From Armatimonadota bacterium (GTDB lineage: Bacteria > Armatimonadota > Fimbriimonadia > Fimbriimonadales > Fimbriimonadaceae), in NCBI GenBank assembly GCA_029781035.1, contig JAKOXK010000060.1, positions 1 through 64,000 on the forward strand: a stretch of DNA of 64,000 nt, read 5' to 3'. Positions within the stretch are counted from its first letter, which is position 1. Each line of letters begins with the position of its first letter. Shown in pieces: positions 17,168 through 62,627 of the stretch. A program made the translations under genes and the position numbers. The notes under the pieces are model-generated. The model saw only the letters and a program-made list of their open reading frames with translations. It was not told the origin of the DNA and made no database searches.

Positions 17168-18168
17168 GCGACGGGATCGAGACGTTCCTGGTCAAGTTGG
17201 AACGGGACGTGCGGCGACTGGCTGGCCGACATCAAGCCGAGCAAGTGGTCGCTGAACTGCGCGCTCATTGCGATGATTCTGTGGCCGAACTCATGGCGGC
17301 GGGCCAGAGCCGCGAAGCGGCCATGGCGCAGACCTTGGCCCGTCTGGGACAGCCGTCACCCCGCGACTTCGTACCGCGAGATGGGGCTCCTTCTTGGTTG
17401 GATCGAAGCCGTAGGTCGCAGTGGGTGTTCTGGCTGTTCCTCGCGTGGGGGGTCGCGCCGATCTGGCTCATCTACGGCGACGCAGACAGAGTCGTACCGA
17501 TCGTGGTGGGCCTCGCCGTGACTGGATTGGGCGCCTTTGGCCTGTTGGGAGCCTATGGAGCGCGCTTCGTGGCATGGCCACTGGTCAGGGCGGTCATCGT
17601 TTGGTTCGCCGTCAATACGTTTCTGATGTCGGTCTTCTGGGTCGACACCAGATCCGGATCGGGCCCGTTCCCCCAGCCGAGATGGGTCGTGGAGAGGTCC
17701 GTGTCGCTGAAAGATGTGACCCTGAGGGAAGTCAAGGACATTCGGTCGCAGCAAAGAGAGGCTCAATCGCTTCTTGAGTACTACAGAGGACTGAGGCGTA
17801 CGGGGATTGACACCATGCCTTCGTACGGGAAGTTGGATCATGGGCTCTTCCGCCTTCCCTCGCCTGACGACCCAGCTTCCATACGCAGCACGCCAGACCT
17901 AAGCACTGCCCGAGTCCAGTGGCTTGAATCGGGAAGCAACCACGTGGCAAGGCTCGCGAGCTGGGCCGATAGCTCTCGCGAGTCGATCGAACGATACAAG
18001 ATCGCCCTCGACCGGCCCTATGCAGAAACTCTGAAGGCCATGGTCCAAGCCAATGGGACGATCGTGTGGCTACCCTTCCTATTCGCTCTGACGTCGGCCC
18101 TGCTGGGGGACATGGTGTGGTCGGTTTGGCTGAAATTGAGGTGGAGGTGGAGCCGGTCGAGTGCGTAA
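17164..18168 (+). CDS. membrane protein with permease-prefix/DUF1700-like N-terminus
   Basis: 334 residues. The N-terminal ~75 residues (FLVKLERDVRRL...VVAELRAHCDDSVAELMAAGQSREAA...LGQP) match the helical domain found in PadR-associated membrane proteins. Four or five membrane segments follow (WVFWLFLAWGVAPIWLIY, VVPIVVGLAVTGLGAFGLLG, LVRAVIVWFAVNTFLMSVFW, and one near the C-terminus), with a ~130-residue hydrophilic region before the last. Start 17164 overlaps the padR stop; a longer in-frame start lies inside padR. The function is unknown. Confidence 0.85.
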   Translation: MSDGIETFLVKLERDVRRLAGRHQAEQVVAELRAHCDDSVAELMAAGQSREAAMAQTLARLGQPSPRDFVPRDGAPSWLDRSRRSQWVFWLFLAWGVAPIWLIYGDADRVVPIVVGLAVTGLGAFGLLGAYGARFVAWPLVRAVIVWFAVNTFLMSVFWVDTRSGSGPFPQPRWVVERSVSLKDVTLREVKDIRSQQREAQSLLEYYRGLRRTGIDTMPSYGKLDHGLFRLPSPDDPASIRSTPDLSTARVQWLESGSNHVARLASWADSSRESIERYKIALDRPYAETLKAMVQANGTIVWLPFLFALTSALLGDMVWSVWLKLRWRWSRSSA

Positions 18169-18204
18169 TGGCTTGATCCTTCACTCCCACCCCTCAAAGT
18201 CGTA

Positions 18205-19536
18205 CTAGTCGACGATCTTGATCAGCGGCCGGACACCGCCGACTTGCTCTGACGAGACCGAGACAGCCTGACGAAGCCGCGTCGAGAGTTGACCCCAGTC
18301 GACGTCTCTCGAACTTTGCATCTCGAACAGAGGTTCTCCTGGGAGGATCTTGGAGCCGATTCCCCGCATGACGGTCACCCCCGCGGTCGGATCGATCGGG
18401 TCGTCTTTGGTGACGCGGCCCGCTCCTAGTTCCAGGGCCACTTCACCAACCGTCTTGGCACAGACTCGCGAAACGTATCCCGATTCGCCATCGAGGACGA
18501 CATCGCGCTTGGTTCGAGGTTCTTGCCAGTTGACGTCCTGGTCCAGATCGATGGAACAACCTTGCGCTTCAAACCAGACTTTGAGCTTGGTCAATGCTCG
18601 GCCCGAGCGGACCGCAGCCAGAGCGTCTTCGTGGTTTCCCTTTCCAACAGCCTCAAGGGCGTGTCCGGCCAATCCGACACAGAGGTTGAAGAACCGCCGT
18701 CTGCCGTCTGTGTCGTCCTCTTCGGTGTCATCGAGGGTGGAGGAGTAGCTGGGATCGAGGACGGCAAGGGCTTCTTTGACCTCCAAGGCATTGCCCACAG
18801 TCGAGCCCAGCGGTTGATCCATGTCGGTGATGACTGCCCGCATCTGGAGTCCACAGAGCCTTCCCGTCTCCACGAGTGAATGCGCAAGCGATTCGGCTTC
18901 GGTCAGAGACTTCATGAATGCGCCGCTACCGCACTTGACGTCGAGCACCACGGTTTCGGCACCGCCGGCGATCTTCTTGCTGAGGATGCTCGCCGTGATC
19001 AATGGGATGCTCGCCACTGTGCCCGTGACGTCGCGAAGGGCGTACAGCGCTTTGTCCGCGGGAGCAAGGCGAGGAGTCTGTCCACTGAGGGCGATGCCGA
19101 TCCGTTTCGCCTGCGCGACCATCTCTTCGGGCATAAGGTCAGTCCGAAAGCCAGGAACACTCTCAAGCTTGTCGATCGTTCCTCCGGTCGTTCCGAGGCC
19201 CCGTCCACTCATTTTCACCACCGTCACGCCGCAAGCGGCGAGGATCGGAAGCACCACCAGAGTCGTTTTATCGCCGACGCCCCCGGTACTGTGCTTGTCA
19301 AGCCACGGTCTTGGTAGCCCTGTCAAGTCCAGGCGCTCTCCACTGTGGGCCATGGCCAACGTGAGGTCTGCGGTTTCCTTGGGATCCAGTCCCTTGACGT
19401 AGGCGGCCATGAGCCATGCGCTGAGCTGGTAGTCAGGGACGGATCCGTCCGCTGCGCCTCGGGCCAACTCATCGAGCTGCTCTCGGCTGTTCACCCCGCC
19501 GTCGCGTTTGACCACGATCGAGTCGAGGAAGGTCAT
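18205..19536 (-). CDS. deoA: thymidine/pyrimidine-nucleoside phosphorylase
   Basis: Cleaves pyrimidine nucleosides with phosphate to base and (deoxy)ribose-1-phosphate. The 443 residues show the signature DKHSTGGVGDKTTLVVLPILAACG, KMSGRGLGTTGGTIDKLE, and DVKCGSGAFMKS. Length is standard for the ~440-residue bacterial enzyme. It may use nucleosides brought in by the BMP importer at 3.4-7.8 kb, but that link is inference. Whether it is DeoA or Pdp by specificity is not readable. Confidence 0.92.
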   Translation of the reverse strand: MTFLDSIVVKRDGGVNSREQLDELARGAADGSVPDYQLSAWLMAAYVKGLDPKETADLTLAMAHSGERLDLTGLPRPWLDKHSTGGVGDKTTLVVLPILAACGVTVVKMSGRGLGTTGGTIDKLESVPGFRTDLMPEEMVAQAKRIGIALSGQTPRLAPADKALYALRDVTGTVASIPLITASILSKKIAGGAETVVLDVKCGSGAFMKSLTEAESLAHSLVETGRLCGLQMRAVITDMDQPLGSTVGNALEVKEALAVLDPSYSSTLDDTEEDDTDGRRRFFNLCVGLAGHALEAVGKGNHEDALAAVRSGRALTKLKVWFEAQGCSIDLDQDVNWQEPRTKRDVVLDGESGYVSRVCAKTVGEVALELGAGRVTKDDPIDPTAGVTVMRGIGSKILPGEPLFEMQSSRDVDWGQLSTRLRQAVSVSSEQVGGVRPLIKIVD

Positions 19537-19542
19537 GCGACG

Positions 19543-19548
19543 ATTATG
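19543..19548 (-). promoter_or_regulatory. -10 box (CATAAT) of deoA
   Basis: On the minus strand CATAAT ends exactly 6 nt before the ATG. Confidence 0.6.
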
Positions 19549-19600
19549 GGTGAAGGAGCACAGAGTGCGGACGTCGCGGCCCGCACCCCATGACCTTGGC

Positions 19601-20299
19601 TCAGTCGGGCAACGATTGCGCCCGCTTCGTCAATCCCTTCAACTGGTCGATGAGAGTCCTCCTTCGCTCAGGGGTCAGGTCGTCTCTCAGCAGTTCGTCA
19701 GTGACGAGGTCGATGAGGTCTTGGTCGCCTTGTACGGCCTCGGCACGGCTTACGGTTTCGGGTGGAGCCGGCGGAGTGCCGGGAGTTGGGGGCGTTCCTG
19801 GGCTCGAACGCTCGGCCTTTCGAGCATCCACCACGACCACGCCGGCGGCTTTGCCGATGTGGTGCCTGACTAGGTCGCTCAAGATCCCCTGTTCGAGGAA
19901 CGGAGCCAAGTGAGTCAGCGTTCGCGTGTCGATCGAGCAGCCTTCGGCCAGGCAGGCCCTCACCATCTCGGTCAGGTCGGCCGACTTGACGAATGGTGCG
20001 AGGCGGACGACGACTCCAAGATCTCCGTGTTTGCCGCCGTTGTTGTCGTTGCCACTGTCCTTGAGGTACGCGTACAGAAGCCTAGCCTCGACGCCGATCT
20101 GGCCAAAGTCAGCCGACTCGGGTAGTTTGCCGAAGAGGCCGTGAGGCACATCGCTTTCGTCTTCGAGGGAATCGAGCAGCGAGTTGTAGCGCTGGATCAT
20201 GGCGGGCTTGCCTGAATCGAGGCTCCCGGTCAGTGAAGCATGCTCGGCCATGTCGGCGATTTCCTTGACCAAGCGATGGATCTTGTGATCTTGTTTCAT
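19601..20299 (-). CDS. hypothetical protein co-encoded with an ECF sigma factor
   Basis: 232 residues, soluble, mostly helical with acidic stretches, a GNDNNGGKHGD loop and a Pro/Thr-rich linker (PGTPPTPGTPPAPP) near residue 180. No membrane span, zinc motif or known domain is seen. The start overlaps the ECF sigma stop (ATGA), the usual place for an anti-sigma factor. It has no transmembrane anchor, so if it regulates the sigma it would do so in the cytoplasm. That role is inferred from position only. Confidence 0.8.
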   Translation of the reverse strand: MKQDHKIHRLVKEIADMAEHASLTGSLDSGKPAMIQRYNSLLDSLEDESDVPHGLFGKLPESADFGQIGVEARLLYAYLKDSGNDNNGGKHGDLGVVVRLAPFVKSADLTEMVRACLAEGCSIDTRTLTHLAPFLEQGILSDLVRHHIGKAAGVVVVDARKAERSSPGTPPTPGTPPAPPETVSRAEAVQGDQDLIDLVTDELLRDDLTPERRRTLIDQLKGLTKRAQSLPD

Positions 20300-20874
20300 G
20301 GTGTCACCTGGGGGTCAAGGCACCGACGCAGCCTTTCGCGGGCGGCGTGAAGGCGCCATTTGACGGTCGTTTCTGGGAGGGAGAAGAAGGAAGCGATGCG
20401 GACCACAGGCCATTCCTGCAAGTAGTACAGCCTCACGATGTCGCGCTGATCGTCGGGGAGCTTTTCGAACTCCGCGAGCATCCTCGTGACTTCGTCCCGG
20501 TTGTCCACCTCGTCGTGCGGCCGGTGAGACAACTCTTCGCTGTTGGCCAGGATCAGGCGGTCCACCGGACTTTCCCTGAGCCTCGCTCCAAGACGCTTGG
20601 CCCGGTTACGGACGATCGCGTGGATCCATGCCGGGAACTTTTGGCCGTCACTCAACTGGGGCAACATCTTGTACGCGGAGAGGAAGGCGTCTTGGACGGC
20701 GTCCTCAGCCAGTTCGCGGTCACCCAGGGCGCCGCGCGCGACCATCGTCACGGCCGGCCGATAGCGTCGGACAAGTTCGTCGAAGGCGCCGAGGTCACCG
20801 ACTTGGGCAGCAAAGACGAGAGACTCGTCGGTGGCTTGCTTCCAGTCGTGGGCCCCGGGCCGCATTCTTCTCAA
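20296..20874 (-). CDS. ECF-type RNA polymerase sigma factor
   Basis: 192 residues. Region 2: ELVRRYRPAVTMVARGALGDRELAEDAVQDAFLSAYK and FPAWIHAIVRNRAKR. Region 4: LPDDQRDIVRLYYLQEWPVVRIASFFSLPETTVKWRLHAARERLR. A GGAGGAG Shine-Dalgarno precedes the ATG. It is shorter than and unlike the sigma at 15195, with no N-terminal extension. It is the first gene of a two-gene operon with the hypothetical protein downstream. Confidence 0.9.
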   Translation of the reverse strand: MRRMRPGAHDWKQATDESLVFAAQVGDLGAFDELVRRYRPAVTMVARGALGDRELAEDAVQDAFLSAYKMLPQLSDGQKFPAWIHAIVRNRAKRLGARLRESPVDRLILANSEELSHRPHDEVDNRDEVTRMLAEFEKLPDDQRDIVRLYYLQEWPVVRIASFFSLPETTVKWRLHAARERLRRCLDPQVTP

Positions 20875-43705: not shown

Positions 43706-43710
43706 GCCGC

Positions 43711-43790
43711 GGACAAGAAGCGGAGGGACTTGAGTTGTGGCCATCTTCCAGGTCCCTCGGCTCGCGGCTTCACCGCTCGCTCAGGATGAC
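43711..43790 (+). repeat. palindromic repeat copy 1 (left end missing)
   Basis: This copy lacks the left end and runs from the GCGGAGGGAC core to the right end TCAGGATGAC at 43790. The next ~60 nt resemble the spacers that follow copies 4 and 5. Confidence 0.75.
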
Positions 43791-43851
43791 GTGCGGGCAC
43801 AAGCGGTTCCCGGTCCGCACCAGTGATCAGTGGTTACCACTTGCCCGGTCC

Positions 43852-43893
43852 GTCATCCCGACCGAGCGCCGTAGGCAAGGAGCGGAGGGATGT
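43852..43893 (+). repeat. palindromic repeat copy 2 (left half)
   Basis: Begins GTCATCCCGACCGAGCGCCG and ends just after the GAGCGGAGGGA core. The right half is absent. Confidence 0.75.
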
Positions 43894-43921
43894 TGAAGTT
43901 GTTTTTGCTTTGCCGCGGTCC

Positions 43922-43975
43922 GTCATCCCGACCGGATTTGAGCCGCACGGCGAGAGAAGCGGAGGGACCTCGAAG
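43922..43975 (+). repeat. palindromic repeat copy 3 (left half, variant)
   Basis: Begins GTCATCCCGACCGG and has the variant middle GAGCCGCACGGCGAGAG, shared only with copy 7, before AGCGGAGGGACCT. The GIY-YIG stop codon falls at its right edge. Confidence 0.8.
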
Positions 43976-44284
43976 TCAGTCGTCCTTTCTGCCGTACCAA
44001 TCCGCCGCGAGGTCGCGGTAGTCCGGATTGATCGCTTGGATCAACCAGTTCTTCTTCTCCCTTCGCCATCGTTTGATCTGCTTTTCTCGGTCGATCGCCT
44101 CGCGGACATCCGTGAACTCCTCGTACCAGACCAGCGCATGGCAGCGGTACTTCTTGCTGAATCCTTCGAACTCACCGTTCTTGTGTTGCCAGACACGGCC
44201 CTGAAGGTCGGTCGTGACGCCCACATACAGCGCGCCGTTGCGGCTGATCATCATGTAAACGTAACTGAGTTTCATTCCCCTCAC
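43976..44284 (-). CDS. GIY-YIG nuclease family protein
   Basis: 102 residues of the YhbQ/UPF0213 type. The catalytic pair reads YVYMM then LYVGVT ten residues later, followed by RVWQHKNGEFEGFSKKY and WYEEFTDVREAIDREKQIKRW with the conserved Glu. It ends NPDYRDLAADW. The GTG start has a -10 box (TAGAGT) 7 nt upstream; an ATG at 44275 is also possible. Both sides are bounded by palindromic repeats: a half copy at its stop and a full copy 29 nt beyond its start. No other gene shares the island up to 45022. GIY-YIG proteins nick or cut DNA. Confidence 0.92.
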   Translation of the reverse strand: MRGMKLSYVYMMISRNGALYVGVTTDLQGRVWQHKNGEFEGFSKKYRCHALVWYEEFTDVREAIDREKQIKRWRREKKNWLIQAINPDYRDLAADWYGRKDD

Positions 44285-44291
44285 GGTCTTG

Positions 44292-44297
44292 ACTCTA
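44292..44297 (-). promoter_or_regulatory. -10 box (TAGAGT) of the GIY-YIG gene
   Basis: On the minus strand TAGAGT is 7 nt before the GTG at 44284. It lies between the gene and repeat copy 4. Confidence 0.5.
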
Positions 44298-44313
44298 CAT
44301 CTTGCCCTGGAAC

Positions 44314-44417
44314 GTCATCCCGACCGAGCGCCGTAGGCGGCGACCGGAGGGACCTGTAAGAAGTGGACGTCTTGGAGGTCCCTCGACTCACGGCTGGCGC
44401 CGTTCGCTCGGGATGAC
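44314..44417 (+). repeat. palindromic repeat copy 4 (complete)
   Basis: A full element of 104 nt. The left half runs from GTCATCCCGACCGAGCG to CGGAGGGACCT, and the right half is its imperfect inverse, from GGAGGTCCCTCGACTCACGG to CGTTCGCTCGGGATGAC. It would fold as one long stem. Confidence 0.85.
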
Positions 44418-44479
44418 GTGCGTCCACAGGTGGTTTCCATCCACCACCTGCTCGGGCCAATCACCTCTTGCCCCGGAAC

Positions 44480-44602
44480 GTCATCCCGACCGAGCGCCGT
44501 AGGCAACGAGTGGAGGAACCTGTAAGAAAGGGCAGTATTGGAGGTCCCTCGTCCTTCGACTTCGCTCAGGATGACGGGGCTCCGCCGCTCTCTCGGGATG
44601 AC
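44480..44602 (+). repeat. palindromic repeat copy 5 (complete, doubled right end)
   Basis: A full element, 44480-44575, with left GTCATCCCGACCGAGCGCCG and right CTTCGCTCAGGATGAC. A second right end (CTCTCTCGGGATGAC) follows at 44588-44602. The spacer between copies 4 and 5 (44418-44479) recurs after copy 5 (44603-44664), so the repeating unit is ~165-185 nt. Confidence 0.8.
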
Positions 44603-44664
44603 GTTCGCCCACAAGCGGCCTCCATCCATAACCTGCTCCCGCCAACAACCCCTTGTCCCGGTCC

Positions 44665-44710
44665 GTCATCCCGACCGACTGCCGAAGACAAGGAGCGGAG
44701 GGACCTTGAA
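44665..44710 (+). repeat. palindromic repeat copy 6 (left half)
   Basis: Begins GTCATCCCGACCGACTGCCG and keeps the AGGAGCGGAGGGACCTTGAA core, then breaks off. Confidence 0.75.
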
Positions 44711-44724
44711 ATCAAGCTGCGGAT

Positions 44725-44784
44725 CCTGGTCTGCAGCGACGGGAGGTAGGCATGAGGCCGCGGTAACCGCGCTGCCAGACCAGG
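44725..44784. repeat. TIR element, copy A
   Basis: A 60-nt stretch bounded by CCTGGTCTGCAGC (44725-44737) and GCTGCCAGACCAGG (44771-44784), which are inverted copies of each other with one extra base. The interior includes CGCGGT-A-ACCGCG, itself a dyad. A second copy lies at 46049-46109. Confidence 0.75.
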
Positions 44785-44793
44785 CCACGGCAC

Positions 44794-44830
44794 CCTCCCT
44801 CTCCGACGCTGCCGGCGACGGAGAGGGAGG
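44794..44830. other. 12-bp perfect hairpin
   Basis: CCTCCCTCTCCG (44794-44805) and CGGAGAGGGAGG (44819-44830), with a 13-nt loop, inside the repeat-filled stretch. No gene is adjacent, and its function is unknown. Confidence 0.5.
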
Positions 44831-44907
44831 ATGTATTGCACCTCTCCGCCCGGCCCTGCGTCCTCGACCGCCGGGCCATCTTCTCAAACCCCTTCGGAGT
44901 GGACGGC

Positions 44908-44960
44908 GTCATCCCGACCGTATTCGAGCCGCACGGCGAGAGGAGCGGAGGGACCTTGAA
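44908..44960 (+). repeat. palindromic repeat copy 7 (left half, variant)
   Basis: Begins GTCATCCCGACCGTATTCG and has the same GAGCCGCACGGCGAGAG middle as copy 3, then AGCGGAGGGACCTTGAAGG. It is the last copy of the island. Confidence 0.75.
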
Positions 44961-44973
44961 GGAGTTCTTCGAT

Positions 44974-62350: not shown

Positions 62351-62404
62351 GGTCGTCCTTTCCACGTTGACAATCCTTACAACCCTCACGACTCGTGAAG
62401 GTCC

Positions 62405-62450
62405 GTCATCCCGACCGAATGCCGTAGGCCATGAGCGGAGGAACCTTCAA
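62405..62450 (+). repeat. palindromic repeat copy 8 (left half)
   Basis: GTCATCCCGACCGAATGCCG through GAGCGGAGGAACCT, a left-half copy 17 kb away from the others, so the family is not confined to the GIY-YIG island. Confidence 0.75.
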
Positions 62451-62627
62451 GGAACTGGGCGTCCTGCCGTTCCCGGCTTGCGGCCTAGTCAGGAACGCAC
62501 GTCAGGCCGCGATGGAACCCGCCGCCAAGCCGGGCCACGGCTCCCTGGGAGATGTACCATCTTATAGCGAGGGACGCTTTGCACGGACACTCGAGCGTGG
62601 TAACGTACCTTGCCCGGTGCCACGGCC

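Follow-up and report, generated by a model that had tools for sequence, protein, structure and literature searches.

The window, as we term the 64,000 nucleotides of Armatimonadota DNA analysed here, carries a small gene whose product is predicted to be an endonuclease of the GIY-YIG superfamily, of the COG2827/UPF0213-like kind. The protein matches PF01541 with 63.1 bits against a Pfam cut-off of 22.6, and the catalytic Tyr, Tyr-x-Gly, Arg and Glu of this domain are present. Across the aligned members of its subfamily (67 loci) Tyr20, Gly22, Arg30 and Glu67 are invariant, Tyr10 is kept in all members except one, and His34 and Asn86 are nearly invariant. An AlphaFold2 model of the protein (pLDDT 87) has as its nearest fold the UPF0213 structure 1zg2, followed by Slx1, a branched-DNA nuclease. 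Only one other PF01541 match exists in the same genome, inside a 732-codon open frame on another contig, and no GTCATCC tag was found around that frame.

Seven copies of a repeat surround the gene, namely two complete inverted doublets, one truncated doublet and four left halves (Table 1). A complete copy, or doublet, joins two halves in inverted orientation that differ slightly from each other, the left of GACCG type and the right of GAGCG type. Halves in the window start CGTCATCCCGACCG (left type) or, inverted, CGTCATCC[C/T]GAGCG (right type), and the copies read CGTC-ATCCC.... Exact CGTCATCCYGASCG tags lie on the plus strand at 43851, 43921, 44313, 44479, 44664 and 44907, with one alone at 62404, and on the minus strand at 43791, 44418 and 44576; a further right half ends at 44603.

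Table 1. Positions in the window of the predicted nuclease gene and of the repeat copies
Feature	Position	Strand	Details
Truncated doublet, tagged in its right half (CGTCATCCTGAGCG on minus strand) but not in its left	43706..43791	+	
Left half copy	43850..43897	+	Family D2
Left half copy abutting the GIY-YIG stop codon	43920..43975	+	Family D7
Predicted GIY-YIG endonuclease gene	43976..44284	-	102 aa; GTG start at 44284, ATG at 44275; COG2827/UPF0213-like
Complete doublet: CGTC-tagged left half (GACCG type) and inverted right half (GAGCG type)	44312..44419	+	29 nt beyond gene start
Second complete doublet, degenerate	44478..44577	+	DNA fold and repeat comparison
Extra solitary right half (TCTCTCGGGATGACG)	44578..44603	-	Repeat family D8
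Left half copy	44663..44710	+	Family D2; 89% identical to reference half
Left half copy, other sub-type	44906..44961	+	Family D7; 93% identical to 43921-43975
Solitary left half copy, 18 kb away	62403..62452	+	Pattern and repeat comparison

An earlier note on this DNA had described a GIY-YIG gene embedded in a seven-copy palindromic array, with a half copy against its stop codon and a complete copy 29 nt past its start. This layout holds: the gene occupies 43976-44284 among copies spanning 43706-44961, the half copy ends at 43975 and the doublet begins at 44313. That all copies point the same way is correct for the polarity of the doublets but not for the tags, which are present on both strands. 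Of the complete copies, for which self-folding was claimed, the doublet at 44313-44418 alone is clearly better than its shuffles in a DNA fold (-37.9 kcal/mol, z -6.0); the doublet at 44479-44576 is degenerate (z -0.8). The lone eighth copy proved to be a solitary site at 62404, to which we add further copies away from the gene on contigs C75 (three sites), C85 and C95. Over the whole genome (3.42 Mb) there are 15 exact CGTCATCCYGASCG sites and 0 for the reversed control pattern, so the sites are not due to chance. A comparison with Rfam yielded only one microRNA match, judged spurious and scoring well under the cut-off for that family.

Relatives of the gene were gathered from 61 related genomes, 251 genomes of the phylum, named genomes (Nitrospirales, Pedobacter) and plasmid or chromosome records (Sinorhizobium, Shinella, Rhizobium, Azospirillum, Novosphingobium, Sphingobium, Neisseria, Aeromonas, Photobacterium, Planktothrix and Spirosoma), other phyla being sampled via a plasmid collection and six named loci. 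The homologue from Azospirillum lipoferum is WP_014249537.1. The repeats at these loci differ in sequence and follow one common plan. A [C/T]GTC tag is joined to a stem of at least 5 bp whose first bases are AT or AC; a GA/GA mismatch pair is frequent, and an inner stem with its loop and a tail rich in TC complete the unit. Among such repeats are CGTCATCCCGACCGA... (genus of the window), TGTCACCCTGAGCGAAGCGAAGGGTCTC, TGTCATTCCGAGCGGAGCGAGGAATCTC, CGTCATTGCGAGGNACGAAGCAATC (Pedobacter), CGTCATCCTCGGGCTTGACCCGAGGATCCA (Rhizobiales), CGTCATCCCCGCGAAGGCGGGGATCCAG (Azospirillum) and CGTCATTCCCGCGCAGGCGGGAATCTAG (dRS3 of Neisseria). The GA/GA pair lies directly inside the stem in 113 of 274 units, where about one would be expected.

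The repeats belong to, or extend, the CGTC-tagged REP superfamily of Di Nocera et al. (2013), which includes dRS3 in Neisseria and is described as 'apparently' without a dedicated transposase (PMC3733652). Its describers sought an adjoining transposase, found none and left open mobilisation by another enzyme. The superfamily feature of an unpaired [C/T]GTC tag at one end of a stem starting AT or AC is present in our repeats, as are many dispersed copies, often as inverted dimers (15 sites in the window's own genome, and the doublets). Hairpins of 20-40 bp with a stem of 8-9 bp and a loop of 4-5 nt were found for the Neisseria, Azospirillum and Rhizobiales copies, whereas the halves in the window have an outer stem of 4-6 bp, mismatches and a longer loop. 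The gene is flanked by CGTC repeats in species on the published list, namely Sinorhizobium, Azospirillum and Neisseria (dRS3); Caulobacter is also on this list. In the open-access papers searched, we found no earlier report that connects GIY-YIG with palindromic repeats, REP, REPIN or dRS3.

Among distinct relatives, 63 offered 300 bp of flank on either side of the gene, and these flanks were scanned strictly for [C/T]GTC-A hairpins. The hairpins occur in the flanks of 52 (178 units), on both sides in 34 of the 63. Farther out, 1.0-1.3 kb from these genes, 4 of 53 loci have them (5 units) and 0 of 53 have them on both sides (p = 3e-17); beside GIY-YIG genes of other subfamilies they occur at 2 of 22 (p = 1e-9) and 1 of 12, i.e. 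3/34. Around one in six subfamily loci has no detectable tagged hairpin. We also scanned, with no preset tag, the 300-bp flanks around 67 distinct members of the subfamily for the trinucleotide that stands before hairpin stems of 5 bp; GTC ranked first of 64, at 6.07 per kb against 1.47 for the median tag and 1.32 for GTC distally.

The association recurs in Bacteroidota, Nitrospirota, Cyanobacteriota and Pseudomonadota as well as in the window's own phylum. It is the rule in at least five phyla, not a local accident, and it is specific to the GIY-YIG subfamily of the window protein. The least probable of the explanations considered is that repeats simply gather in intergenic DNA, where any gene would look alike. 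REPs are indeed intergenic and often clustered, according to the 2013 survey (PMC3733652), but the pattern is absent from the distal flanks of the same loci and from other GIY-YIG subfamilies, and the rule spans at least five phyla. This reading was rejected statistically, being contradicted at p below 1e-8.

The distribution of repeats over whole genomes points in the same direction, with exceptions. Among the 61 related genomes, near relatives bearing the gene hold 15, 48, 5, 55, 9, 0, 0 and 1 CGTCATCCYGASCG sites (48 and 55 in genomes G001 and G007), those with 0 or 1 using other repeat classes; near relatives without the gene have a mean of 0.8 sites and a maximum of 5. Over the phylum, GTCAYNCYGAGCGNAGCGA is found in 21 of 39 gene-bearing genomes versus 31 of 212 others (Fisher p = 4e-7). 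Repeats in relatives that lack the gene had earlier been named as grounds for abandoning the partnership, and this is in part what we see: one repeat type, the GAGCGNAGCGA type, is carried by these 31 of 212 gene-less genomes, with 102 copies in G051 and 63 in G064. Several phylum genomes with no detected gene hold 40-200 repeat copies, and such exceptions are real; many of the gene-less, repeat-bearing genomes are fragmented assemblies.

GIY-YIG enzymes are classical homing nucleases, and the repeats of gene-less genomes could suggest that the gene alone is mobile, with older, independent CGTC repeats serving as a landing site that the nuclease cuts and into which repair copies the gene. The position of the gene between whole repeat pairs would also suit such a process. 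Against this, the gene of Azospirillum lipoferum 4B separates sufB from sufC and is bordered on either side by a full repeat pair. In four other Azospirillum, 90-97% identical to it in the matching DNA, sufB and sufC are 56-130 nt apart and neither gene nor repeats are present. Gene and flanking repeat pairs are therefore present or absent at sufB-sufC as one block, and this place gives no sign of a repeat that predates the gene. At this one locus the gene does not interrupt a recognition site that is intact in the empty alleles; a palindrome cleanly split by the gene was seen at no locus, and the repeats are commoner in gene-bearing genomes. We consider homing to be fairly unlikely.

The gene occupies non-homologous places in three species of the genus to which the window belongs, with no common neighbouring gene within 9 kb; the ribonucleotide reductase that adjoins it in the window is on a different contig from the gene in both other species. 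No clean insertion junction or target duplication was readable at three A. lipoferum loci compared with relatives, the spacers being too divergent. A Sinorhizobium meliloti locus holds, upstream of the intact gene, a remnant of a GIY-YIG gene 3' end (..LNPDWRDLYFQLW*) together with its downstream repeat, a sign of tandem duplication. On plasmid p1 of Planktothrix agardhii (17347-20622) the gene and its array have the DISARM gene drmA on one side and a gene for an MmeI-type restriction enzyme on the other.

We next consider how repeat class maps onto a protein tree of 67 members and 97 columns, in which many forks are open. Repeat class changes 22 times on this tree, compared with 39.2 when labels are shuffled (0/200 as low), and follows the protein clade across phyla; species relatedness accounts for some of this clustering. 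The dRS3-type class is common to Neisseria, Azospirillum, Aeromonas and Photobacterium, and two proteins of the window's phylum that lie amid dRS3-type repeats group with these genera, away from their own phylum. One genome (G038) encodes two members (L031, L041), and the repeats around them belong to different classes.

These observations also bear on a housekeeping role, in which a structure-selective repair or cruciform nuclease, a Cho/UvrC- or Slx1-like back-up, would restrain palindromes without mobilising them. Caulobacter COG2827 proteins, one of them with an SOS box, have been proposed as back-up excision-repair nucleases (PMC1839093), and Slx1 is among the nearest folds of the window protein. 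Such a nuclease, however, would have no need to be embedded in its substrate, nor to match repeat classes across phyla; a profile match to the protein was obtained in only 62 of 251 phylum genomes, and the position of the gene varies within a genus. A purely housekeeping function is, in our estimation, distinctly unlikely. Recurrence in five phyla, block absence in relatives and the tracking of protein phylogeny by repeat type support the earlier proposal that nuclease and repeats are partners in a RAYT-like position. A functional partnership, with the nuclease probably standing in the place of the RAYT, is strongly supported by these comparisons.

The genome of the window also encodes two HUH (Y1_Tnp) proteins, L157 (C6:4627) and L158 (C85:36698), and around both genes lie inverted repeats unrelated to those of the window (CCTCGGCACG...CGTGCCGAGG with a 29-nt tandem array, and CCCGCCGGGTGCCCCGGTCTGGCCAC). 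Both are RAYT/TIRYT-like elements. No GTCATYC tag was found in the 3.3 kb around either gene; given this and their own inverted repeats, a RAYT is not the evident partner of the window repeats. Mobilisation by these transposases, with the GIY-YIG gene as a passenger, is very improbable even though contig C85 has a solitary CGTC repeat at a distance of 2.9 kb from one of them, and it was rejected by the flank analysis of both genes. Nor did the 2013 survey find any RAYT gene flanked by CGTC repeats (PMC3733652).

Other GIY-YIG subfamilies showed arrangements of their own. Eight genes in the window's phylum (L034, L042, L123, L033, L036, L121, L120 and L122) immediately follow the 3' end of a tRNA gene (tRNA-Val, Ala or Thr). 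At L042 about 10 nt separate the tRNA CCA end from the start codon, and the 3' end of the frame is followed by a short GC hairpin and then a second copy of the tRNA 3' half, a layout resembling a tRNA with its anticodon arm replaced. This looks like a separate GIY-YIG element targeting tRNA ends. The genes at L110, L111 and L114 adjoin a tmRNA gene and have CCTGAGC...GTCGAAGG-like palindromes without a GTC tag. A more distant subfamily (L105, L107, L108, L109, L112 and L137) is flanked by CCTGAGCTTGTCGAAGG-type palindromes without a [C/T]GTC tag, which suggests that other GIY-YIG subfamilies have their own repeats.

Together these data favour, with a probability of roughly 0.6, a model in which gene and repeats form one selfish or semi-domesticated REPtron-like unit, made up of a single-domain GIY-YIG endonuclease and its cognate CGTC-tagged palindromes. 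The best reading is a partnership of the RAYT/REPIN kind with a GIY-YIG nuclease replacing the HUH transposase, from which we infer cleavage and spread of the repeats. From the anatomy of the repeats, the enzyme would recognise the [C/T]GTC tag and hairpin of its cognate repeat, presented either by a repeat pair extruded as a cruciform or by single-stranded DNA at replication, and would nick or cut beside them. GIY-YIG enzymes hydrolyse DNA without a lasting covalent link. Given this chemistry, strand transfer as performed by RAYTs is not expected and copying would be left to the host: repair may copy repeat pairs, or the block of pair, gene and pair, into or beside the broken site, building arrays around the gene and, rarely, dispersed copies. 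Copying by host repair fits the growth of tandem arrays around the gene.

For the missing enzyme behind the spread of the CGTC repeat family, no better candidate than the lineage of the window protein has so far come forward. The chances are about even that it is a dedicated mobiliser of the whole CGTC-tagged REP superfamily, Neisseria dRS3 included, unrelated to HUH enzymes and of different chemistry. CGTC-tagged palindromes are widespread in bacteria and have since 2013 been described as without a dedicated enzyme, and a consistent gene family inside them makes the question testable at the bench. If the model is right, a large family of small proteins, whose sole annotation is 'GIY-YIG nuclease family' or 'excinuclease ABC subunit C', would gain a function, and REP-like systems would have arisen at least twice, from unrelated nucleases, as a second solution to the spread of REPs.

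With the published superfamily (PMC3733652) the repeats share the CGTC/TGTC tag, a stem starting AT, a CCA-like tail, inverted dimers and, in the Neisseria, Azospirillum and Rhizobiales copies, a short loop, and the species overlap in Sinorhizobium, Azospirillum, Novosphingobium, Neisseria and Sphingobium. They differ in that the search of the 2013 paper turned up no dedicated enzyme, whereas here a GIY-YIG gene is the consistent neighbour. The repeats of the window's phylum depart further, with longer loops and often the GA/GA pair, a class not named in the accessible part of that survey.

GIY-YIG homing endonucleases of the I-TevI type have the catalytic domain and gene mobility in common with the window family, which unlike them has no separate DNA-binding domain or intron and is flanked by multi-copy palindromes rather than directed to one unique target. 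The small COG2827/UPF0213 proteins (1zg2, 1ywl) share the fold and catalytic residues (53.9 bits to 1zg2). These are structural-genomics entries; UPF0213 proteins are not known to be linked to repeats, and no such link was found in the open-access papers searched.

The closest parallel is the RAYT (TnpA-REP)/REPIN system. In both, a small gene for a dedicated nuclease has on its flanks palindromic repeats that bear a tag at one end and often form inverted pairs, with cognate repeat types and dispersed orphan copies, orphan REPs being known for RAYTs also (PMC3733652). Cleavage by RAYTs requires the tag and, for E. coli REPs, also a mismatch bulge within the stem (PMC8266576), and the [C/T]GTC tag and GA/GA mismatch look like counterparts of these. 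The enzyme here, however, is a GIY-YIG hydrolase from which no strand transfer is expected, where RAYTs are HUH/Y1 transposases; the arrays around its gene can exceed ten copies. Of the features that define a REPtron, the repeats flank a GIY-YIG gene and not an HUH/Y1 transposase gene, and they bear a [C/T]GTC tag in place of GTAG. Since the unit would work like a REPtron but departs from it in both respects, we regard it as a variant of the REPtron kind with a distinct enzyme.
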